Below, piece after piece: positions 3,470 to 31,433 of a DNA stretch of 32,976 bases (position 1 is the stretch's first letter; each line of letters begins with the position of its first letter). The stretch comes from a bacterium (GTDB taxonomy: Bacteria; Oederibacteriota; JAAXVQ01; JAUVAV01), in assembly GCA_023139775.1 (NCBI GenBank), contig JAGLMY010000066.1, positions 1 through 32,976 of the forward strand, given 5' to 3'. The notes beneath the pieces were generated by a model. It had not been told where the DNA came from. It did no database searches and worked only from the letters and a program-made list of their open reading frames with translations. The translations under genes and the position numbers were made by a program.

Positions 3470-3769
3470 ATGTTTAAAAAGTAAAAAGTCACTTCCGCAA
3501 CAGAAACTAACTACAGCAAAAGTACGATTGCCGGATTTTTTGCAACTAAGAAAAGTAAAAGCAGCCACCAGAAGAAAACTGATCTCTAGAAGAAATTAGT
3601 TGATTTATAAGAGTTTTTGGTTAAATTTGTTTGAAATATAAATGGAACATCCGTTGTAGGGGCGTAGTGTTGATAGTACGCCCAAATAAAATATTTTAAA
3701 AATCGCTTAGGAAAGTGAAATGGGATTCAGAGGGCCCTTGAATTATATAGGGTGTTCCCGGAACGCCGG
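3470..3769. other. Intergenic spacer between convergent genes, with one degenerate palindrome
   Basis: AT-rich spacer between the plus-strand anti-sigma gene and the 3' end of the minus-strand protease. I see no ORF or RNA gene. At 3656-3683 GTAGGGGCGTA is followed by TACGCCC, a 7-bp stem that is a decayed copy of the dispersed GTAGGGGCG palindrome family. No convincing terminator was found for either gene. Confidence 0.6.
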
Positions 3770-11905: not shown

Positions 11906-11936
11906 GGGGCGACTACTGTAGTCGCCCCTTTTTTAT
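11906..11936 (+). terminator. Rho-independent terminator after the lipoprotein pair
   Basis: The 10-bp perfect stem GGGGCGACTA / TAGTCGCCCC (11906-11915 and 11919-11928) with a CTG loop is followed directly by TTTTTTATTTT. The stem also belongs to the dispersed GGGGCGA palindrome family, so a repeat appears to serve as the terminator. Confidence 0.88.
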
Positions 11937-11965: not shown

Positions 11966-12195
11966 GTAACATGTCAGTGAACTGCAGTTAAACAAAGGTT
12001 GTCATTCCCGAACGGTTTAATCGGCCCCGACCGGAAAAGATATATAGGGACGCTTTCGGCAGGAATCTGGTTTTTTAAAACCGTATCCCCGATACAAGCA
12101 TTCGGGGATGACAGGATGGGGGCTACCATCAGGGGTGACGAACAAAAAAACGCATGCCTGACCTGTTACAAAAAAACAGTTCACTGATATATTAC
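11966..12195. mobile_element. IS66-like MITE, copy A (230 bp)
   Basis: Left end GTAACATGTCAGTGAACT (11966) and right end AGTTCACTGATATATTAC (ending 12195) are imperfect 18-bp inverted repeats. The first 45 bp match the inverted right end of copy B (27929-28129) at about 40 of 45 positions. The interior holds GTCATTCCCGAA ... TTCGGGGATGAC, a different palindrome family, and a second internal end-like motif (TGACCTGTTAC at 12159-12169). No transposase is encoded. GTAA termini are, as I recall, typical of the IS66 family; that link is inference. No clear target duplication was seen for this copy. Confidence 0.7.
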
Positions 12196-14434: not shown

Positions 14435-15907
14435 ATGAGCCAGGATTATGAAATTGTTATTGGACTGGAAGTTCACGTCGAGCTGTCTACAGCCTCTAAA
14501 ATATTTTGTGGTTGTCCCACCACCTTTGGCGCGGAACCGAATACCCAGGTTTGCCCAGTGTGCTTAGGTTTGCCCGGAACTTTGCCGGTGTTGAATCAAC
14601 AGGTATTAACCTTTGCCATACGCGCGGCGTTAGCCTGTAATTGCCAAATCGCGCAGCACACCAAATTCGATCGTAAAAATTATTTCTATCCGGATCTTCC
14701 CAAAGCCTATCAAATATCTCAGTACGATATGCCATTGGCAGAACACGGTAGTATCAGCATTGATACTACTCAAGGCGAAAAAAGCATTGGTATCACGCGT
14801 GTGCACCTGGAAGAGGACGCCGGAAAATTGGTGCATCAAAGTCAGGGTGGTCAAATCGGGACTGCCGCCAGTTCTCTGGCAGATTACAACCGGACCGGTG
14901 TTCCATTAATTGAAATTGTCAGTGAACCGGATCTGCGCAGCGCGGATGAGGCGTACGCCTATCTGACAGCACTCAAAGAGATTTTGCTCTATACCAAAGT
15001 CTCTGACTGCAATATGGAAGAAGGTTCCCTGCGTTGCGACGCGAATATTTCCGTGCGTCCGCGGGGACAAGAGGCCTTGGGCACCAAAGCTGAGTTGAAA
15101 AACATGAATTCTTTTAAAAATATTCGGGACGCTATTGAGTACGAAGCTAAACGCCAGATCCGTGTGCTGGAAGAAGGCGGTAAAGTGGAGCAAGAGACCC
15201 GTTTGTGGGACGCGGACAAAGGGACCTCGCACTCCATGCGCAGTAAAGAAGAAGCGCATGATTACCGGTATTTTCCTGAACCGGATCTGCCCGTAGTATA
15301 CCTTTCTGAGAAAATGATTGCAGATCAGCAACAACAGCTGCCGGAAATGCCACAGGCACGTCGTCACCGTTTCCAAAAGGAGTATGGATTAAGTGAGTAC
15401 GACGCCGGGGTCTGTACCATGTCGCCGGCCATGGCGGAGTATTTTGAAGATGCCGCTAAAAAGGCTGTGTCTGCCAAGGTTTCGGCCAAAACAGTGTGCA
15501 ATTGGATTACAGTTGAATTACAGGGCAAGTTAAAGGCAGACGGAAAAGAGATAAGTAATTCACCGATAGCCTCCGGGCAGATGGCCGAGTTAACGAGACT
15601 GATTGAACGTGGTAAAATTTCCGGTAAAATGGGCAAAGATGTATTTGCTGATATGTATGTGACAGGTAAGGATCCGGAAGTCATTGTTCAGGAAAAAGGG
15701 TTGTCGCAGATATCCAACAGCGATGAAATTTTGAAAATGGTAGCAGCGATTATCGCAGCGAATCCGAATCCGGTAGCTGAATACAAAAGCGGCAAGACCC
15801 AAACCATCGGTTTTTTGGTCGGTCAAGTCATGAAAGCATCACAAGGACAAGCGAATCCCAAATTAGTCAATCAAATCCTGCGTGATTGTCTGGATAAAAA
15901 TATATAG
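14435..15907 (+). CDS. gatB: Asp/Glu-tRNA amidotransferase subunit B
   Basis: tRNA-binding kinase and transamidase subunit of GatCAB, 490 residues. It activates the misacylated carboxylate with ATP and accepts ammonia from GatA. Landmarks: GLEVHVELST at the N-terminus, the Cys-rich FCGCPTTFG and CPVCLGLPGTLP, FDRKNYFYPDLPKAYQISQ, HLEEDAGKLVH and TGVPLIEIVSEPD, then the helical and YqeY-like C-terminal tail. I use ATG 14435, preceded by AAGGA (14421-14425). An in-frame GTG at 14354 would add 27 residues with no family counterpart. The 81-nt gap upstream contains a weak CTCCGG/CCGGAG stem. Presence of GatCAB suggests that glutaminyl- and/or asparaginyl-tRNA is made indirectly. Confidence 0.96.
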   Translation: MSQDYEIVIGLEVHVELSTASKIFCGCPTTFGAEPNTQVCPVCLGLPGTLPVLNQQVLTFAIRAALACNCQIAQHTKFDRKNYFYPDLPKAYQISQYDMPLAEHGSISIDTTQGEKSIGITRVHLEEDAGKLVHQSQGGQIGTAASSLADYNRTGVPLIEIVSEPDLRSADEAYAYLTALKEILLYTKVSDCNMEEGSLRCDANISVRPRGQEALGTKAELKNMNSFKNIRDAIEYEAKRQIRVLEEGGKVEQETRLWDADKGTSHSMRSKEEAHDYRYFPEPDLPVVYLSEKMIADQQQQLPEMPQARRHRFQKEYGLSEYDAGVCTMSPAMAEYFEDAAKKAVSAKVSAKTVCNWITVELQGKLKADGKEISNSPIASGQMAELTRLIERGKISGKMGKDVFADMYVTGKDPEVIVQEKGLSQISNSDEILKMVAAIIAANPNPVAEYKSGKTQTIGFLVGQVMKASQGQANPKLVNQILRDCLDKNI

Positions 15908-15908
15908 T

Positions 15909-15931
15909 ACGGGCGCACTGCGTGCGCCCGT
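15909..15931. repeat. GTACGGGCGCAC palindrome after gatB
   Basis: The 10-bp perfect stem ACGGGCGCAC / GTGCGCCCGT has a TGC loop and starts 2 nt after the gatB stop. On the plus strand it is followed by AAAAAA, not T, so it is not a normal terminator for gatB, although the hairpin could still protect the 3' end of the mRNA. It is a relative of the GTAGGGGCG repeat family. Confidence 0.75.
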
Positions 15932-15976
15932 AAAAAATAAAATCAAAAGTCGAAATGTAATTCCGTAGGGACGATC

Positions 15977-16005
15977 TTTACTTGTGCCTGTATTTTGGGT
16001 ATGAT
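15977..16005 (+). promoter_or_regulatory. Candidate promoter for the RNA methyltransferase gene, inside a repeat
   Basis: TTTACT (15977-15982) and TATGAT (16000-16005) are 17 nt apart. They lie between the arms of a GTAGGGACGAT ... ATCGTCC inverted repeat (15969-15975 and 16004-16010). A start near 16012 gives a short leader containing AGGGGG and the TTG codon at 16036. Confidence 0.5.
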
Positions 16006-16035
16006 CGTCCGGATAAACCGAGGGGGTCCCACCGT

Positions 16036-17421
16036 TTGAGTATTGACTCACCTGCCACGCTTCTTGCGATAGACCAGGAGTTGGAACTGCTCATCTATGC
16101 CTTGGCCTATGGCGGCGAGGGAATTGCCAAGCATAAAGGGATGGTGATATTTGTAGCCAACACCTTTACCGGTGATCAGGTTCGCGTTCGGATTCAGCAG
16201 GTAAAGAAAAAATTTGCTCGTGCCCGGCTGGTGAGGCTTCTCCAGCCTTCCCCGGAACGGGTGGATTCCGTTTGTCCGCAGTCCGGAACCTGTGGCGGCT
16301 GCTCATGGTTAAATTTGAATTATCCGGCCCAACTCAAAGCCAAACACAGTTTTGTGGCAAACACGCTTTCACATGTGGGTCGGCTGAAAAGTGTGTGCGT
16401 TTTGCCGCCTATTAAATCAACTCCGTCCCTAGGGTACCGGCACAAGATACAAATACCGGTCCAAACCTGCGGGCAAGCACTGCAGGCTGGTTTTTACGCA
16501 CGCCAAACTCATACAGTTGTGCCTTTTGAGGAGTGTCCGGTCCAACCGGCGCTGGGAAATCGCATACTCAAACAGACATTGATATTAGCACGGACGTTTG
16601 GTTATACCGGATATGATGAAACCCAACATCAGGGTCAATTACGCCATTTGGTTATTCGCTTGGGCGCGAAAACCAAAGAAGCCATGTTGATTCTGGTGAC
16701 AACCACCCCGGATATTCCGCGGGTCCGGGAATTTGCCGAGGCCATACGCCGGGTAATTCCGGAATTGGTCGGTGTGGTACAAAATATAAACGCCGAAGTA
16801 ACCAATGTGATAATGGGTCCGCAGTACAAAATTTTGGCGGGTCGTGCTTTTTTGCACGAAGAGATCCATGGTCTGAAGTACCGCATTTCCGCTGAGTCTT
16901 TTTTTCAGGTCAATCCATATCAAATGCCTGTGCTGGCAGAAACAGTTATACAGGCTGCTGCGTTGACAATGCGGGATACAGTTGTGGATTTGTTCTGCGG
17001 TGTGGGATTTTTAAGTCTGGAACTGGCCAAACAGGCCAAGCGTGTGTTTGGCATTGAGTCTACACTCAAGGCGATTGAGGACGCACACGCCAACAAACAT
17101 CTGAACGGTATAACGAATGTTGATTTTTATGCTCAGGATGCCGCGCAAGGTCTGCGGCAATTATGGCGCAAAGGCGTGCAACCGGATCTGATTGTACTTG
17201 ACCCTCCGCGCAAAGGCTGTACCCCGGATATGCTGCAACAGTTGCTCGAATGCCGGTCGAAAAAAATGGTCTATGTTTCGTGCAATCCGGTAACGCTGGC
17301 GCGTGATCTGGCCGGGTTGATCCAGGGTGGATACCAGGTGAAAGAAGTACAACCAGTGGATATGTTTCCGCATACGTATCACGTGGAGAGTGTGGTGGGT
17401 TTGGTGAGAAAAATACCGTAG
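16036..17421 (+). CDS. 23S rRNA (uracil-5)-methyltransferase, RlmD/RlmCD-like (TrmA/RumA family)
   Basis: SAM-dependent RNA m5U methyltransferase, 461 residues from the start chosen here. It begins with a TRAM-like RNA-binding domain (ALAYGGEGIAKHKGMVIFV ... GDQVRVRI). A 4Fe-4S cluster site follows (Cys80, Cys86, Cys89 in CPQSGTCGGC, and Cys167 in ECPVQP), then the Rossmann methylase: VDLFCGVGFLSLELA, LDPPRKGC, and nucleophile Cys416 in VSCNPVTLARD. Start TTG 16036 is chosen because AGGGGG (16021-16026) is well spaced and a promoter lies just upstream; TTG 15982 is the alternative. The exact target (U1939, U747 or another) cannot be read from sequence. The TAG stop is supplied by the first base pairs of a dispersed repeat. 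Confidence 0.92.
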   Translation: MSIDSPATLLAIDQELELLIYALAYGGEGIAKHKGMVIFVANTFTGDQVRVRIQQVKKKFARARLVRLLQPSPERVDSVCPQSGTCGGCSWLNLNYPAQLKAKHSFVANTLSHVGRLKSVCVLPPIKSTPSLGYRHKIQIPVQTCGQALQAGFYARQTHTVVPFEECPVQPALGNRILKQTLILARTFGYTGYDETQHQGQLRHLVIRLGAKTKEAMLILVTTTPDIPRVREFAEAIRRVIPELVGVVQNINAEVTNVIMGPQYKILAGRAFLHEEIHGLKYRISAESFFQVNPYQMPVLAETVIQAAALTMRDTVVDLFCGVGFLSLELAKQAKRVFGIESTLKAIEDAHANKHLNGITNVDFYAQDAAQGLRQLWRKGVQPDLIVLDPPRKGCTPDMLQQLLECRSKKMVYVSCNPVTLARDLAGLIQGGYQVKEVQPVDMFPHTYHVESVVGLVRKIP

Positions 17422-17489
17422 GGGCGGGTTCCAAACCCGCCCACAAATTGAATAAATACATTCCGTAGGGGCGAGGTGCCCTCGCCCAC
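17417..17489. repeat. Two tandem CCGTAGGGGCG hairpin repeats between the methyltransferase gene and polA
   Basis: Unit 1 has stem GGGCGGGTT / AACCCGCCC (17422-17430, 17434-17442). Unit 2 has stem GGGCGAGG / CCTCGCCC (17469-17476, 17480-17487). Both start CCGTAGGGGCG and end CGCCCACAAATT; loops are 3 nt. The arms differ but pair perfectly, so pairing has been conserved while the sequence changed. No T-run follows. Confidence 0.88.
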
Positions 17490-20376: not shown

Positions 20377-20546
20377 CTAGGAGCCTGTCGGACTTAGGCA
20401 CCAAAGCGGATTTTAAGCACTCTTCCCCCTTTGAAAAAGGGGGATTGAGGGGGATTTTGAACAGATAGTTGTGCGTTTTTTCAATAAATCCCCCCTGCCC
20501 CCCTTTACAAAAGGGGGAAAAAGACTAAAGTCCGACAGGCTCCTAG
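20377..20546. mobile_element. Non-autonomous element with perfect 19-bp terminal inverted repeats
   Basis: The left end CTAGGAGCCTGTCGGACTT (20377-20395) is exactly matched in reverse complement at 20528-20546. The outer CTAG is itself a palindrome, so it could be a 4-bp target duplication around 15-bp repeats. The 132-bp interior carries the CCCCCTTTGAAAAAGGGGG type repeat and its partner GCCCCCCTTTACAAAAGGGGG. No ORF is inside. It abuts other hairpin repeats on both sides. Confidence 0.8.
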
Positions 20547-20593
20547 AGGGCGTATTGCAATACGTCCTTAGGATTTAAAACCAAAGCCTCTGG

Positions 20594-20618
20594 ATTCCCG
20601 ACAAGAGCATTCGGGAAT
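20594..20618. repeat. ATTCCCGA/TCGGGAAT hairpin repeat
   Basis: ATTCCCGA (20594-20601) pairs perfectly with TCGGGAAT (20611-20618); the 9-nt loop includes AAGAGC. Relatives of this sequence, GTCATTCCCGAA and TTCGGGGATGAC, lie inside MITE copy A. Confidence 0.75.
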
Positions 20619-20770
20619 GACAACCGAAAAAACCGCCTAAATGCTCAAGCTCCTAGTTACCTTCAGGACTTAAGCGGAGATGTTTTTGACCGATAATAAA
20701 GGCATGGAAATATCTCACTTAAATATTTCCGCAAAAAATTATTTTATGGAAGTTGCTTAAGGAGAGACAT

Positions 20771-21068
20771 ATGGCTTCAACGACTGCATTCAAAGTAGAC
20801 GGGCCTCATGAAATAAGTTACGAAAAAGGTAATGGTAACGGGAAACGTATTGAAGAATCTGCTGAATTTGAATTTTGGAAAGAACATCCTTCACTGAAGG
20901 ATAGCGTGGGGTGTTATGTAACAGGGTAAAGATAAAATCAGCAGACCATATGTTTCCGGGTTATTTGACAAAGCACAGCACTTCACTGATATGTTACGAG
21001 TGTTGAAATCTAATGGTGGTCATCCTGGTAAAATTGCTATACAATTTAAAAAAATGTTTGACATTTGA
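20771..21068 (+). pseudogene. Broken small gene, interrupted near codon 50
   Basis: ATG 20771 has a strong AAGGAGA site 6-13 nt upstream and reads MASTTAFKVDGPHEISYEKG and onward for 52 codons, to a TAA at 20927-20929. The last residues, GCYVTG, recall the GCYVFG/A segment of a hypothetical nuclease-like family I know only loosely. The reading frame is cut where MITE-like copy C begins (20918). A second frame runs open from 20922 to TGA 21066-21068, ending HPGKIAIQFKKMFDI, which could be the original C-terminus out of frame. The middle of the gene is missing. Product identity is uncertain; the broken state is well supported. Confidence 0.55.
20918..20997. mobile_element. IS66-like MITE relative, copy C (80 bp)
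   Basis: The right 37 bp (20961-20997) match the left 37 bp of copy D (28573-28609) in reverse complement with one mismatch. A central 19-nt segment (20935-20953) is identical to copy D (28608-28626) but on the same strand, so the core is inverted relative to the end. The left end begins GTAACAGG and then diverges, so this boundary is less certain. Confidence 0.6.
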
Positions 21069-21148: not shown

Positions 21149-21364
21149 TTCCCCAATAGGCGTTTTCAGCTGAAGCAATACAGATCATTATTCCCTAAAA
21201 CCGAAATAGAAAAAAGTTATTGCGAGCGACTACCAGCGGGGTGGCAAGTATATCGTTGGTGCAGCGTCCTGTTCCCATTTTATAAACCAATTACACTTGC
21301 ACAAAAAATTAAACAGTCCTATAATATGAACACTTTTAATAAAGATGTAGTCTTTTTATACTAA
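21149..21364 (+). pseudogene. Gene remnant, frame open without a start, overlapping direct repeat copy 1
   Basis: A frame without stops encodes about 71 residues with a protein-like composition (for example ERLPAGWQVYRW and PFYKPITLAQKIKQ) but has no start codon with a ribosome site and no upstream coding. It ends at TAA 21362-21364. Its last third is shared with the remnant at 22481-22642. I do not recognise the parent protein. Confidence 0.4.
21277..21345. repeat. 69-bp direct repeat, copy 1
   Basis: Matches 22480-22548 at about 64 of 69 positions, same orientation, 1203 bp apart. The two copies bracket the methyltransferase remnant and the whole MntA/HepT module. Confidence 0.85.
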
Positions 21365-21591: not shown

Positions 21592-22005
21592 ATGATAGAT
21601 ACAGAAAAGATTATACAAATCATTTTAAAACACTACCCCGACGTACAGGCGATATACTTTTTCGGTTCATACGGAACAGAAAACGAATGGCCGGACAGTG
21701 ATGTGGATATTGCTTTGCTGTTCACACCGCAAAAAGCGGAGAAGGCCGGTTCTTTGACCAGGAGCGATTTATACTTTGAGCTTGATAGGAGCTTGAAAAA
21801 GCAAGTGGATCTGGTCAATCTTCGCGCGGTTAATACGGTTTTTCAAAAAGAAATCATTATGGCTGACCGTAGAATATACTGTCAGGATGAACGCGCGGCT
21901 GATGAATTTGAAATGCTGACTATTTCGAAATATCAGAAATTGAATGAGGAAAGAAAGGAAATCATAGAAAATGCCGTAAAGGACGGGAGGTTTATAGCAG
22001 CATGA
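21592..22005 (+). CDS. mntA: MntA-like nucleotidyltransferase antitoxin
   Basis: Minimal nucleotidyltransferase of 137 residues. The catalytic signature GSX10DXD is exact: Gly25-Ser26 in FFGSYG, then Asp37 and Asp39 in PDSDVDIALLF. In characterised HEPN/MNT systems this enzyme transfers AMP to the HepT toxin and so silences it. Its stop overlaps the start of the next gene by 4 nt (ATGA), as usual for these pairs. AAAGGGAAAG lies just before the ATG. Beyond the core, about residue 95 onward, is a helical Lys/Glu-rich tail that may serve dimerisation. The pair sits in a repeat-rich island with a methyltransferase relic, a setting typical of mobile defence modules. Confidence 0.9.
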   Translation: MIDTEKIIQIILKHYPDVQAIYFFGSYGTENEWPDSDVDIALLFTPQKAEKAGSLTRSDLYFELDRSLKKQVDLVNLRAVNTVFQKEIIMADRRIYCQDERAADEFEMLTISKYQKLNEERKEIIENAVKDGRFIAA

Positions 22006-22479: not shown

Positions 22480-22548
22480 ATTTTATAAACCAATTACACT
22501 TGCACAAAAAAATAAACAGCCCTATAATATAAACACTTTCAATAAAAA
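22480..22548. repeat. 69-bp direct repeat, copy 2
   Basis: Second copy of the repeat at 21277-21345, same orientation, about 64 of 69 identical. It begins 22 nt after the toxin-antitoxin terminator. Confidence 0.85.
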
Positions 22549-22642
22549 TAATGAGATTGATTACTACTTGATATTTACTAATAGAAAGCCTGCTGGAAAA
22601 CAAGATAGTAAAATCGAAAAAATCATTGAGAACATAAAATAA
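22481..22642 (+). pseudogene. C-terminal gene remnant
   Basis: The frame reads FYKPITLAQKNKQPYNINTF and on to ...KIEKIIENIK, stop TAA 22640-22642, with no start codon or ribosome site. It shares its first 23 codons with the remnant at 21149-21364. It probably represents the original 3' end of the gene into or beside which the toxin-antitoxin block moved. Family not recognised. The bases from 22643 to 22792 hold nothing else I can identify. Confidence 0.45.
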
Positions 22643-27928: not shown

Positions 27929-28129
27929 GTAACATGTCAGTGAACTAATGAAACCAAAATTAGCCGCCGATGAACGCAGATAGACGCAGATAATTTTAAT
28001 CGTAGGGGCACCCCTTGCGGGTGCCCTTCAAATTAAAACCAGGGCAGGGGCAAGCCCTGCCCCTACGGGAATATAAAAATCCTGCGGGTATGGCAGCCTT
28101 TGTTTAACTGTAGTTCACTGACATATTAC
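27929..28129. mobile_element. IS66-like MITE, copy B (201 bp), with nested repeats
   Basis: The ends GTAACATGTCAGTGAACT (27929) and AGTTCACTGACATATTAC (ending 28129) are 18-bp inverted repeats with one mismatch. The right 45 bp match the inverted left end of copy A. Inside are a CCGCCGATGAACGC segment (27964-27991, 26 of 28 identical to 29809-29836) and two GTAGGGGC hairpins in opposite orientation (28003-28027, 28041-28067). No ORF. It occupies most of the rho-rpmE spacer. Confidence 0.72.
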
Positions 28130-28190: not shown

Positions 28191-28218
28191 GTAGGGGTGA
28201 CCTGCAGGTCACCCCTAC
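28191..28218. repeat. 28-bp perfect palindrome before rpmE
   Basis: GTAGGGGTGACCTG and its exact reverse complement are joined with no loop. It begins 60 nt before the rpmE start and would lie in or just upstream of the rpmE leader. Same family as the copy at 31398-31433, with T for C at one position in each arm, so pairing is kept. Confidence 0.9.
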
Positions 28219-28250: not shown

Positions 28251-28460
28251 GTGAAACCAAAGATTCATCCGAAATACGAGGCAACCACCTTTGCCTGTGC
28301 CTGTGGCAGTGTATTTGAAACCCGTTCGACCATTCCACCCAAAACACGTGTGGAAATCTGTTCTGCGTGTCATCCGTTTTTTACCGGCACACAGAAATTA
28401 GTCGACACGGCTGGGCGTGTTGAGAAGTTTCGCCGTCGTTACAAAATTAAAGAATCCTAG
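28251..28460 (+). CDS. rpmE: Ribosomal protein L31, zinc-binding (C+) form
   Basis: Large-subunit protein L31, 69 residues. Four Cys at positions 16, 18, 37 and 40 (FACACGS and EICSACHPF) are the canonical zinc site, so this is the C+ type that doubles as a zinc reserve in Bacillus. The family motif [20 protein letters not shown] is intact. Start is GTG 28251, supported by GGAGG about 10 nt upstream. It is flanked on both sides by mobile repeats (MITE copies B and D), which separate it from rho and prfA. Confidence 0.95.
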
Positions 28461-28572: not shown

Positions 28573-28651
28573 GTAACATATTAGTGAAGTGCTGTGCTTT
28601 GTCAAATAAATCAGCAGACCATATGTCTTTCTCGCTTCACTGACCTGTTAC
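28573..28651. mobile_element. IS66-like MITE, copy D (79 bp) with an 8-bp target duplication
   Basis: The ends GTAACATATTAGTGAAG (28573) and CTTCACTGACCTGTTAC (ending 28651) are inverted repeats with 3 mismatches in 17. The direct repeat AGTTTTTT immediately flanks both sides (28565-28572 and 28652-28659), as expected of a transposition footprint. From memory, 8-bp duplications and GTAA ends are both typical of IS66. It lies 55 nt upstream of the prfA ATG and may influence prfA expression. Confidence 0.75.
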
Positions 28652-29765: not shown

Positions 29766-29808
29766 TATCTTAATTCTCAAATTCTTTCCAAAAGGGAAAG
29801 AAAATTAA

Positions 29809-29896
29809 CCGCCGATGAACGCAAATAAACGCAGATATTTTTAGCTTAATGGATATAAATGATTTTTAATTTGCGTATATCGGCGTGTATCGGCGG
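29809..29896. repeat. CCGCCGATGAACGC inverted repeat after prfA
   Basis: The left arm (29809-29836) starts CCGCCGATGAACGC. The right arm (29869-29896) is its approximate reverse complement, with about 22 of 28 positions pairing. The left arm is nearly identical to a single arm found inside MITE copy B. It lies between the convergent prfA and DUF1284 genes. No T-tract. Confidence 0.75.
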
Positions 29897-29922
29897 CTAA
29901 ATTTGATTCCGGCTTGTCCGGG

Positions 29923-30533: not shown

Positions 30534-31397
30534 ATGAAAAAAACAATCTCACTTAATGAACTCTATACCTGGGCAAAGGCAAAATTGAAACTGGCTCAAA
30601 TTGAAGTACCGGATAAAACGGCCGGATATTTGCTGGCTGAAATTCTCAAATTACCGAAGTCCAAATTAGTCACGCAGCCGGATTTTACCATTAGTGAGCA
30701 GCACAGCAAAAAAATCAAAACAGCAGTAAGCTCTCGTTGCCGGCATGTTCCCCTGCAGTACATTCTGGGTACAGAGGATTTTTGGAGTATGTCCCTGCGT
30801 GTGGGCAAAGGGGTTCTGATTCCACGTCCGGAAACAGAGCTTATACTCGAGGAAACCAGACGCTGTGTGCAAAGTCAATCTTCGCCCGGTCCGATTGCGG
30901 ATTTAGGAACCGGTTCCGGGAATTTGGCCTTAGCACTGAGCAAGGAATACCCAAGGAAAACAATTTATGCCGTGGATACTTCAGCTGCGGCATTGAGATG
31001 GGCCAGAATGAACCGGACCCGGGTAAGAAGGAAAAACGTGCGATTTTACCAAGGGAACGCAGAACAACCGCTGCCGCAAAAAGTGCGAGGTACTTTTTCC
31101 TTGGTAGTCTCGAATCCGCCGTATATTCCGAGCACAGATTTAAAAATCCTGCAACCTGAAGTGCAGCATGAACCTCGACAAGCGCTGGATGGGGGAAAAG
31201 ACGGGCTGAAATTGGTCCGGAAAATGATTCGAGCTGCGCAGATATTACTTCGGCCAAACGGTTTGTTTATATGTGAGTTGGGAATTGGACAAGCCGAACA
31301 AGTGATTTGTCTCATGGGAGCCGGAGGTTTTGGTATCCAAAATGTTGTGCACGATTGGCAAAAAATAGAGCGTGTGATCACTGCGAAGAAAAGATGA
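30534..31397 (+). CDS. prmC: Release factor glutamine methyltransferase
   Basis: SAM-dependent N5-methyltransferase for the Gln of the GGQ motif in RF1 and RF2, 287 residues. It has the N-terminal helical release-factor-binding domain, then PLQYILGTEDFWSM and VLIPRPETELI, the SAM motif DLGTGSGN (123-130), and the catalytic NPPY at 194-197 (VVSNPPYIPSTD). Start ATG 30534 has only a weak GGA site. The substrate gene prfA is just upstream, separated by the opposing DUF1284 gene, so prmC probably needs its own promoter in 30352-30533. A 36-bp perfect palindrome begins at the base after the stop codon. Confidence 0.95.
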   Translation: MKKTISLNELYTWAKAKLKLAQIEVPDKTAGYLLAEILKLPKSKLVTQPDFTISEQHSKKIKTAVSSRCRHVPLQYILGTEDFWSMSLRVGKGVLIPRPETELILEETRRCVQSQSSPGPIADLGTGSGNLALALSKEYPRKTIYAVDTSAAALRWARMNRTRVRRKNVRFYQGNAEQPLPQKVRGTFSLVVSNPPYIPSTDLKILQPEVQHEPRQALDGGKDGLKLVRKMIRAAQILLRPNGLFICELGIGQAEQVICLMGAGGFGIQNVVHDWQKIERVITAKKR

Positions 31398-31433
31398 ATA
31401 AGTAGGGGCGACCTGCAGGTCGCCCCTACTTAT
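31398..31433. repeat. 36-bp perfect palindrome directly after prmC
   Basis: ATAAGTAGGGGCGACCTG is followed at once by its exact reverse complement. It starts immediately after the prmC TGA (31395-31397). No T-run follows, so any effect on the transcript would come from the hairpin itself. Longest and cleanest member of the GTAGGGGCG family here. Confidence 0.92.

Follow-up and report, generated by a model that had tools for sequence, protein, structure and literature searches.

GTAG-tagged REP hairpins of an FCPU426 genome, probably spread and kept by several co-resident RAYT transposases

Short palindromes recur at gene boundaries along a 32,976-nucleotide stretch of DNA that very probably belongs to FCPU426 (the window, meaning the whole stretch analyzed), and they raise the question of whether they form a family maintained as hairpins and, if so, what moves them. 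The original prediction listed eleven such places with a common start, treated them as a single family whose arms vary yet still pair, and proposed that the hairpin is under selection or is copied, as in REP/RAYT systems. Our analysis, based on sequence comparison, favors with a probability of about 0.87 the interpretation that they are GTAG-tagged REPs which several RAYT/TnpAREP transposases of the subclass-2.4 type, resident in the same genome, spread and maintain as hairpins. The features of the window on which this rests are the following:

3656-3683, + strand: degenerate REP, GTAG and GGGCGTA stem, 7-bp outer stem with a 10-nt interior
11906-11928, + strand: untagged hairpin followed by T6, terminator-like, left out of the REP count
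15907-15929, + strand: REP with a GTAC tag and GGGCGCAC stem, loop TGC
15965-16010, + strand: doubtful REP remnant, GTAG and GGACGATC, 22-nt loop, fold z -2.6
17418-17442, + strand: canonical REP, GTAG and GGGCGGGTT stem, loop CCA, perfect hairpin
17465-17487, + strand: canonical REP, GTAG and GGGCGAGG stem, loop TGC, perfect hairpin between the methyltransferase ORF and polA
20547-20568: untagged imperfect hairpin without GTAG, left out of the REP count
27929-28129: MITE-like element with ends GTAACATGTCAGTGAA...TTCACTGACATATTAC, the REP pair 28002-28066 nested inside
28002-28026, + strand: canonical REP, GTAG and GGGCACCC stem, loop CTTGC, perfect hairpin
28042-28066, - strand: canonical REP, GTAG and GGGCAGGG stem, loop CTTGC, perfect hairpin
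28191-28218: double-foot REP GTAGGGGTGACCTGCAGGTCACCCCTAC, perfect, GTAG-tagged
31402-31429: double-foot REP GTAGGGGCGACCTGCAGGTCGCCCCTAC, core of the 36-bp palindrome 31398-31433 (fold z -9.6), perfect, GTAG-tagged

The list of eleven places stood in part, as it comprises six perfect GTAG hairpins, one with GTAC and two that are weak or decayed; the places at 11906 and 20548 are untagged. On the + strand GTAGGGGCG occurs at only four of the eleven (3656, 17418, 17465 and 31402), and the weak hairpin at 15965-16010 reads GTAGGGAC. The notion of a single family has to be divided, since two REP classes were mixed in it, the canonical one (tag, then GGGC stem) and a symmetric 28-bp double-foot class (GTAG...CTAC), together with the terminator-like and the untagged hairpin. 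The perfect 28- and 36-bp palindromes were verified at 28191-28218 and 31398-31433; the latter adds four symmetric bases on each side of its double-foot core (ATAA/TTAT), and the two double-foot copies are one compensated pair apart. One terminator was among the predicted settings, and the hairpin at 11906-11928 does look like one. The 36-bp palindrome begins directly 3' of the prmC stop codon (31395-31397), and the 28-bp one lies 5' of a small ORF starting with GTG at 28251, which we take to be rpmE. The canonical copies at 28002-28026 (left) and 28042-28066 (right) form a head-to-head, REPIN-like pair with GTAG outermost. The methyltransferase ORF (15982-17421) ends on the TAG contained in the tag of 17418-17442, 15907-15929 overlaps the final base of the gatB stop codon, and 3656-3683 sits between converging genes.

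The genome-wide count that the original prediction called for revealed a high copy number, with 162 occurrences of CGTAGGGGCG vs 9 of the reversed pattern. The canonical pattern gave 427 matches vs 42, with double-foot elements scored on both strands, and the double-foot pattern 201 elements vs 2. Within 357,395 bp of the genome there were 179 perfect hairpins (stem of 8 or more, loop of 2-8), whereas three second-order Markov controls gave 38-41. Of the 256 tetranucleotide tags at the hairpin outer edge, GTAG was the commonest. A larger sample of 378,603 bp, made up of contigs with CGTAGGGGCG or Y1/RAYT matches so that its density is not that of the genome, yielded, after merging, 112 GT[AG]G hairpins; of these 83 are canonical and 29 double-foot, and the tag is GTAG in 109 and GTGG in 3. 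Raw matches numbered 138 for GTAG and 1-9 for the other tetranucleotides tried; the 126 obtained with TAGG are GTAG read in a shifted frame. The claim that the arms vary yet pair was borne out at 107 GTAGGG[GA]C sites anchored solely on the constant GGGC/GCCC (147 occurrences, 40 without the constant partner arm): stem positions 5 to 8 were paired in 99, 99, 100 and 96 of them, above the shuffle maxima of 75, 52, 51 and 47. The ATAA...TTAT around the 31398 copy hinted at a palindromic target for the double-foot REPs. Over 29 elements, symmetric extension summed to no more than with shuffled flanks (p=0.28), and the idea was dropped; only the number of extensions of 3 bp or more (4 of the 29, p=0.03) leans toward such a target.

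A search of the genome with Pfam Y1_Tnp gave six matches. The full-length Y1 genes found first in this way (L001, L002 and L003) were discarded as movers, as no GTAG hairpin adjoins any of them; the one nearest L001 lies about 600 bp downstream, within another apparent ORF. A double-foot REP at 2727-2754 of L001 is placed in an apparent ORF downstream of the RAYT-like gene and is seemingly read in frame. The genes associated with the REPs are those of the L005 type. The L005 ORF is flanked on either side by GTAGAGACGCGAT palindromes and contains a further one in frame. When its protein was used as a query, 21 of the 45 phylum genomes gave matches; this genome gave 17, many being only halves or fragments. 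Six RAYT ORFs of this genome are intact (L005, L012, L013, L024, L138 and L139), and all six bear tagged hairpins both in their flanks and, in frame, inside the gene, the two sets being similar in type; in L139 the internal copies are GTAC-tagged and the flanks partly different. The RAYT-type Y1 transposase that the original prediction said to look for is therefore present in six intact copies, each with its own hairpins, which supports hairpin copying as in REP/RAYT systems.

We dissected 28 RAYTs with both halves intact from genomes G000, G012, G014, G015, G016, G018, G030, G034, G040 and G044; ORFs without one half or broken by stops, the split L176 and about 20 L005-search matches without a fetched stretch were left out, while L156 and L174, 98% alike, were each counted. 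The HUH histidines H83 and H85, W146 and Y167 were invariant in all 25 RAYTs that were aligned. Strict NH[IFV]H was present in 14 of the 28, WQ in 22 and YIxxNP in 23, with NHLH, DHIH and NHKH as HuH variants, and the HuH-to-Y distance, in RAYTs with both motifs, had a median of 85 aa (range 64-150). L005 cleared Pfam Y1_Tnp (39.8 vs 23), stayed below the cut-off of 80 of NCBIfam NF047646 (REP-associated tyrosine transposase) with 73.4 in two stretches, and had as best PDB sequence match 4er8, named TnpArep, with a weak E of 0.026; L001 scored 84.6 with NF047646, though without an adjacent REP.

Over the 45 phylum genomes, REP counts correlated with RAYT matches (Spearman 0.63 and 0.64). Twelve genomes had both, 9 RAYT only, 2 were REP-rich only and 22 had neither; the REP-rich G021 (137 canonical, 26 double-foot) and G029 (57 and 3) had no L005-like RAYT at E<=0.001. 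Among 12 further genomes, reached through named loci, five matched, namely three FCPU426, one Chloroflexi MAG (G048) and one Bacteroidetes MAG (G049). From these came five near full-length RAYTs, with an internal GTAG hairpin in L180 and L181 and none internal in L184 and L188; in L185 our script placed the hairpin in the core, with the linker boundary unclear.

The relationship between the RAYT genes and the REPs was closer than adjacency. Counting the GTAC tag as well, 24 of the 28 intact RAYTs had a REP within 700 bp, the arrangement of a REPtron (a Y1 HUH gene flanked by its presumed REP type), and 21 carried, besides flanking copies, one or two in-frame internal REPs. All of these lay in the linker that joins the HUH half to the tyrosine half, the conserved halves of the 28 being free of REPs, and some genes held whole head-to-head pairs. 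Flanking REPs without internal ones were found in L144, L170 and L175, and neither, by the definition used for the set, in L148, L155, L156 and L174, although in L156 and L174 tags are present but imperfectly placed. The similarity between internal stems and those of the gene's own flank was 0.910, above all permutations (0.559, with a maximum of 0.727 in 20,000). The own flank was the best match in 16 of the 21 with ties allowed and strictly the best in 7; in L145 and L172 the internal type disagrees with the flanking one. No RAYT could be tied specifically to the two double-foot copies of the window.

What is kept inside these genes may not be the peptide. Of 29 internal hairpins, 8 are reversed and 21 are in the sense orientation, 16 in phase 0 and 5 in phase 1, and phase 2, in which the tag would be read as TAG, is not used by any of the 21; the use of two phases argues against the encoded peptide being what is kept. 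The genes L138 and L143 resemble orthologues and come from different genera; they share 75% nucleotide identity (71% in the codon-guided alignment, 55% at third positions), and their longest exact run is the internal REP palindrome, of 31 nt, followed by one of 18. This suggests that in at least this pair the hairpin, not the peptide, is kept. The same picture could come from replacement by copying other genomic REPs, and among the 43 exact copies in the genome the GGAATGGTC variant carried by L138 is indeed found three more times; this also weakens the notion that internal REPs stand apart from the mobile pool as unique variants. In the other three RAYT pairs examined the longest exact run was not the internal REP. 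Between L024 and L147 one internal stem pair is changed on both arms, and both changes alter amino acids. Of note, an in-frame palindrome in the linker of the L143 RAYT is nested, a REP lying within an outer partial REP copy, and has a stem of 31 bp. It is conceivable, even if we hold it rather doubtful, that the internal REP is a working cis element, each RAYT keeping its own REP type as a DNA or mRNA hairpin to which the enzyme would bind, limiting its own expression or marking its own gene. In its favor are the type match with the flanks, the two reading phases, the head-to-head pairs inside some genes and the comparisons of L138 with L143 and of L024 with L147.

The placement of the hairpins bears on the possibility that they are intrinsic terminators or gene-end RNA signals under selection for expression, with the nearness of RAYT genes being incidental. 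As predicted, they lie at gene boundaries: with gene calls from a simple codon-usage script rather than a standard gene finder, 78 of the 112 were intergenic vs 15.4% of the bases of the sample, and the 34 genic ones include those internal to RAYTs. Their position relative to stops, also singled out in the original prediction, showed a modest 3'-end bias, with 37 of 57 hairpins in same-direction gene pairs nearer the 3' end (p=0.017). Moreover, 28 of 57 were within 60 bp of a stop vs 20.6 expected, a value as high in 15 of 2000 random placements; this would suit terminators, as does the hairpin at 11906. Nevertheless, T-runs next to the REP sides were at background (15 of 224, 6.7%, vs 6.1% of intergenic 8-mers); the profile of an intrinsic terminator, a GC hairpin with a T-run directly after it, suits 11906 alone, and no Rfam family matched in the window. 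Nor would one expect of terminators that the GTAG foot is constant, that copies are symmetric or paired head to head, or that some lie in frame within RAYT genes. We consider a terminator or RNA-signal origin very unlikely. Six genes, one of them the ORF of the window ending at 17421, use the TAG of the tag as their stop codon.

It could also be argued that the REP family is decayed or passive and owes its movement to an unrelated element, such as the MITE around 28002-28066 or IS transposases, the RAYT genes being merely frequent targets. This would accommodate the REP pair within the MITE-like element and the occurrence of REPs in other genes too (the 34 genic cases just mentioned and the one at 2727-2754 of L001). 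However, only one of seven copies of the MITE carries the pair, the other six being REP-free, and random targeting would not be expected to match internal and flanking types in each RAYT nor to restrict the insertions to the linker, though tolerance of the linker explains part of the latter. We regard this explanation as improbable, and continue with the view that the RAYTs themselves spread the REPs. In relatives, the rho-prfA interval holds a different REP type in L027 and L032 and no REP in L029, L030 and L031; the prmC 3' end lacks a GTAG REP in L028, L029, L031 and L032, although in L029 a hairpin with a GTAC tag follows some 60 nt downstream. Such different or absent REPs at the same gene boundaries may be read as indirect signs of movement.

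Other repeats were observed in the window. MITE-like elements, with ends GTAACA..TCAGTGAA / TTCACTGA..TGTTAC, occupy 11966-12195, 27929-28129 and 28573-28651, with an unpaired end at 20997; their inner-end pattern had 32 matches in the genome vs 0 in the control, and since several are at contig ends a longer parent element may exist. A GCCGCCGATGAACGCAGATAGACGCAGAT-like dispersed repeat is found around rho and prfA (27947-27998, 29792-29843 and, inverted, 29869-29908), an inverted repeat of CCCCCTTT..AAAGGGGG units at 20423-20519, with a similar unit at 116-134 of L002, and a further dispersed family in inverted orientation, with CATTCCCGAA / TTCGGGAATG, at 11997-12024 and 20598-20625. In addition, a 70-nt direct repeat (21277-21346 and 22480-22549, 93% identical) brackets a Pol-beta nucleotidyltransferase ORF (21592-22005) and the next ORF.

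By analogy with other TnpAREPs, the HUH tyrosine enzyme would bind the single-stranded hairpin through its GTAG foot, cut near it and rejoin it elsewhere, the substrate strand probably being the lagging-strand template; this single-strand mechanism is borrowed from published work on TnpAREPs, including the available text of PMC8266576. Copies at 3' ends and in leaders would mostly be tolerated passengers.

As far as the accessible text of the relevant reports goes, the system is of a known kind. Subclass 2.4 TnpAREPs, cross-listed with Bertels's group 4, were described as having canonical and double-foot REPs, in-frame REPs between HuH and Y, a long and variable HuH-to-Y distance (median 88 aa) and the motifs NH[IFV]H, WQ and YIxNNP, and as being scattered over phyla (Quentin et al. 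2018, PMC6006769). The RAYTs studied here seem to resemble this subclass in their canonical long REPs with a GC-rich stem base, GTAG...CTAC double-foot elements, variable linker, HuH-to-Y distance and in-frame REPs, here in 21 of 28, with WQ and YIxNNP-like motifs in part of the set. The in-gene REPs are therefore no novelty, and the same report considered that such an insert probably has little effect on the protein. In a similar way, the hairpins have the traits of the GTAG REP superfamily, namely the tag at the foot (one end) of a short perfect stem, high copy number, complementary stem variants, head-to-head dimers, a mainly intergenic location with 3'-end preference, and TAG stops provided by the tag (Di Nocera et al. 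2013, PMC3733652), so the case fits both descriptions. A hairpin with a GTAG guide beside an HUH-Y1 enzyme is also shared with the E. coli TnpAREP/REP system and the Stenotrophomonas REPtron, whereas the E. coli REPs have a bulged stem and the RAYTs studied here have a linker with REPs inside (PMC8266576).

The host differs from those of these reports, as FCPU426 does not occur in the main text of PMC6006769 and is not among the phyla named in the text of PMC3733652 available to us. The RF1 relatives with the highest identity are MAGs of candidate division FCPU426 and of neighbors named Firestonebacteria and Goldiibacteriota. A literature search with GTAGGGGCG gave only unrelated titles among the matches listed, longer REP words gave none, and no report was found of REP/RAYT systems with in-gene REPs in this candidate phylum. 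The presence of several RAYTs per genome and the match between internal and flanking types, measured here, go beyond the account of subclass 2.4 in the text of PMC6006769. Less expected are this matching and the finding that in one orthologous pair no conserved stretch is longer than the internal REP; we did not find the matching or the conservation of an internal REP between genera stated in the accessible text of PMC6006769, PMC3733652 or PMC8266576.

In summary, our work adds a little-studied candidate phylum to those in which REP/RAYT systems with in-gene REPs occur. Several RAYTs with distinct, matched REP types in one genome represent a natural set for studying how an enzyme chooses its hairpin and, if the internal REPs were functional, RAYTs would gain a built-in site of self-recognition.
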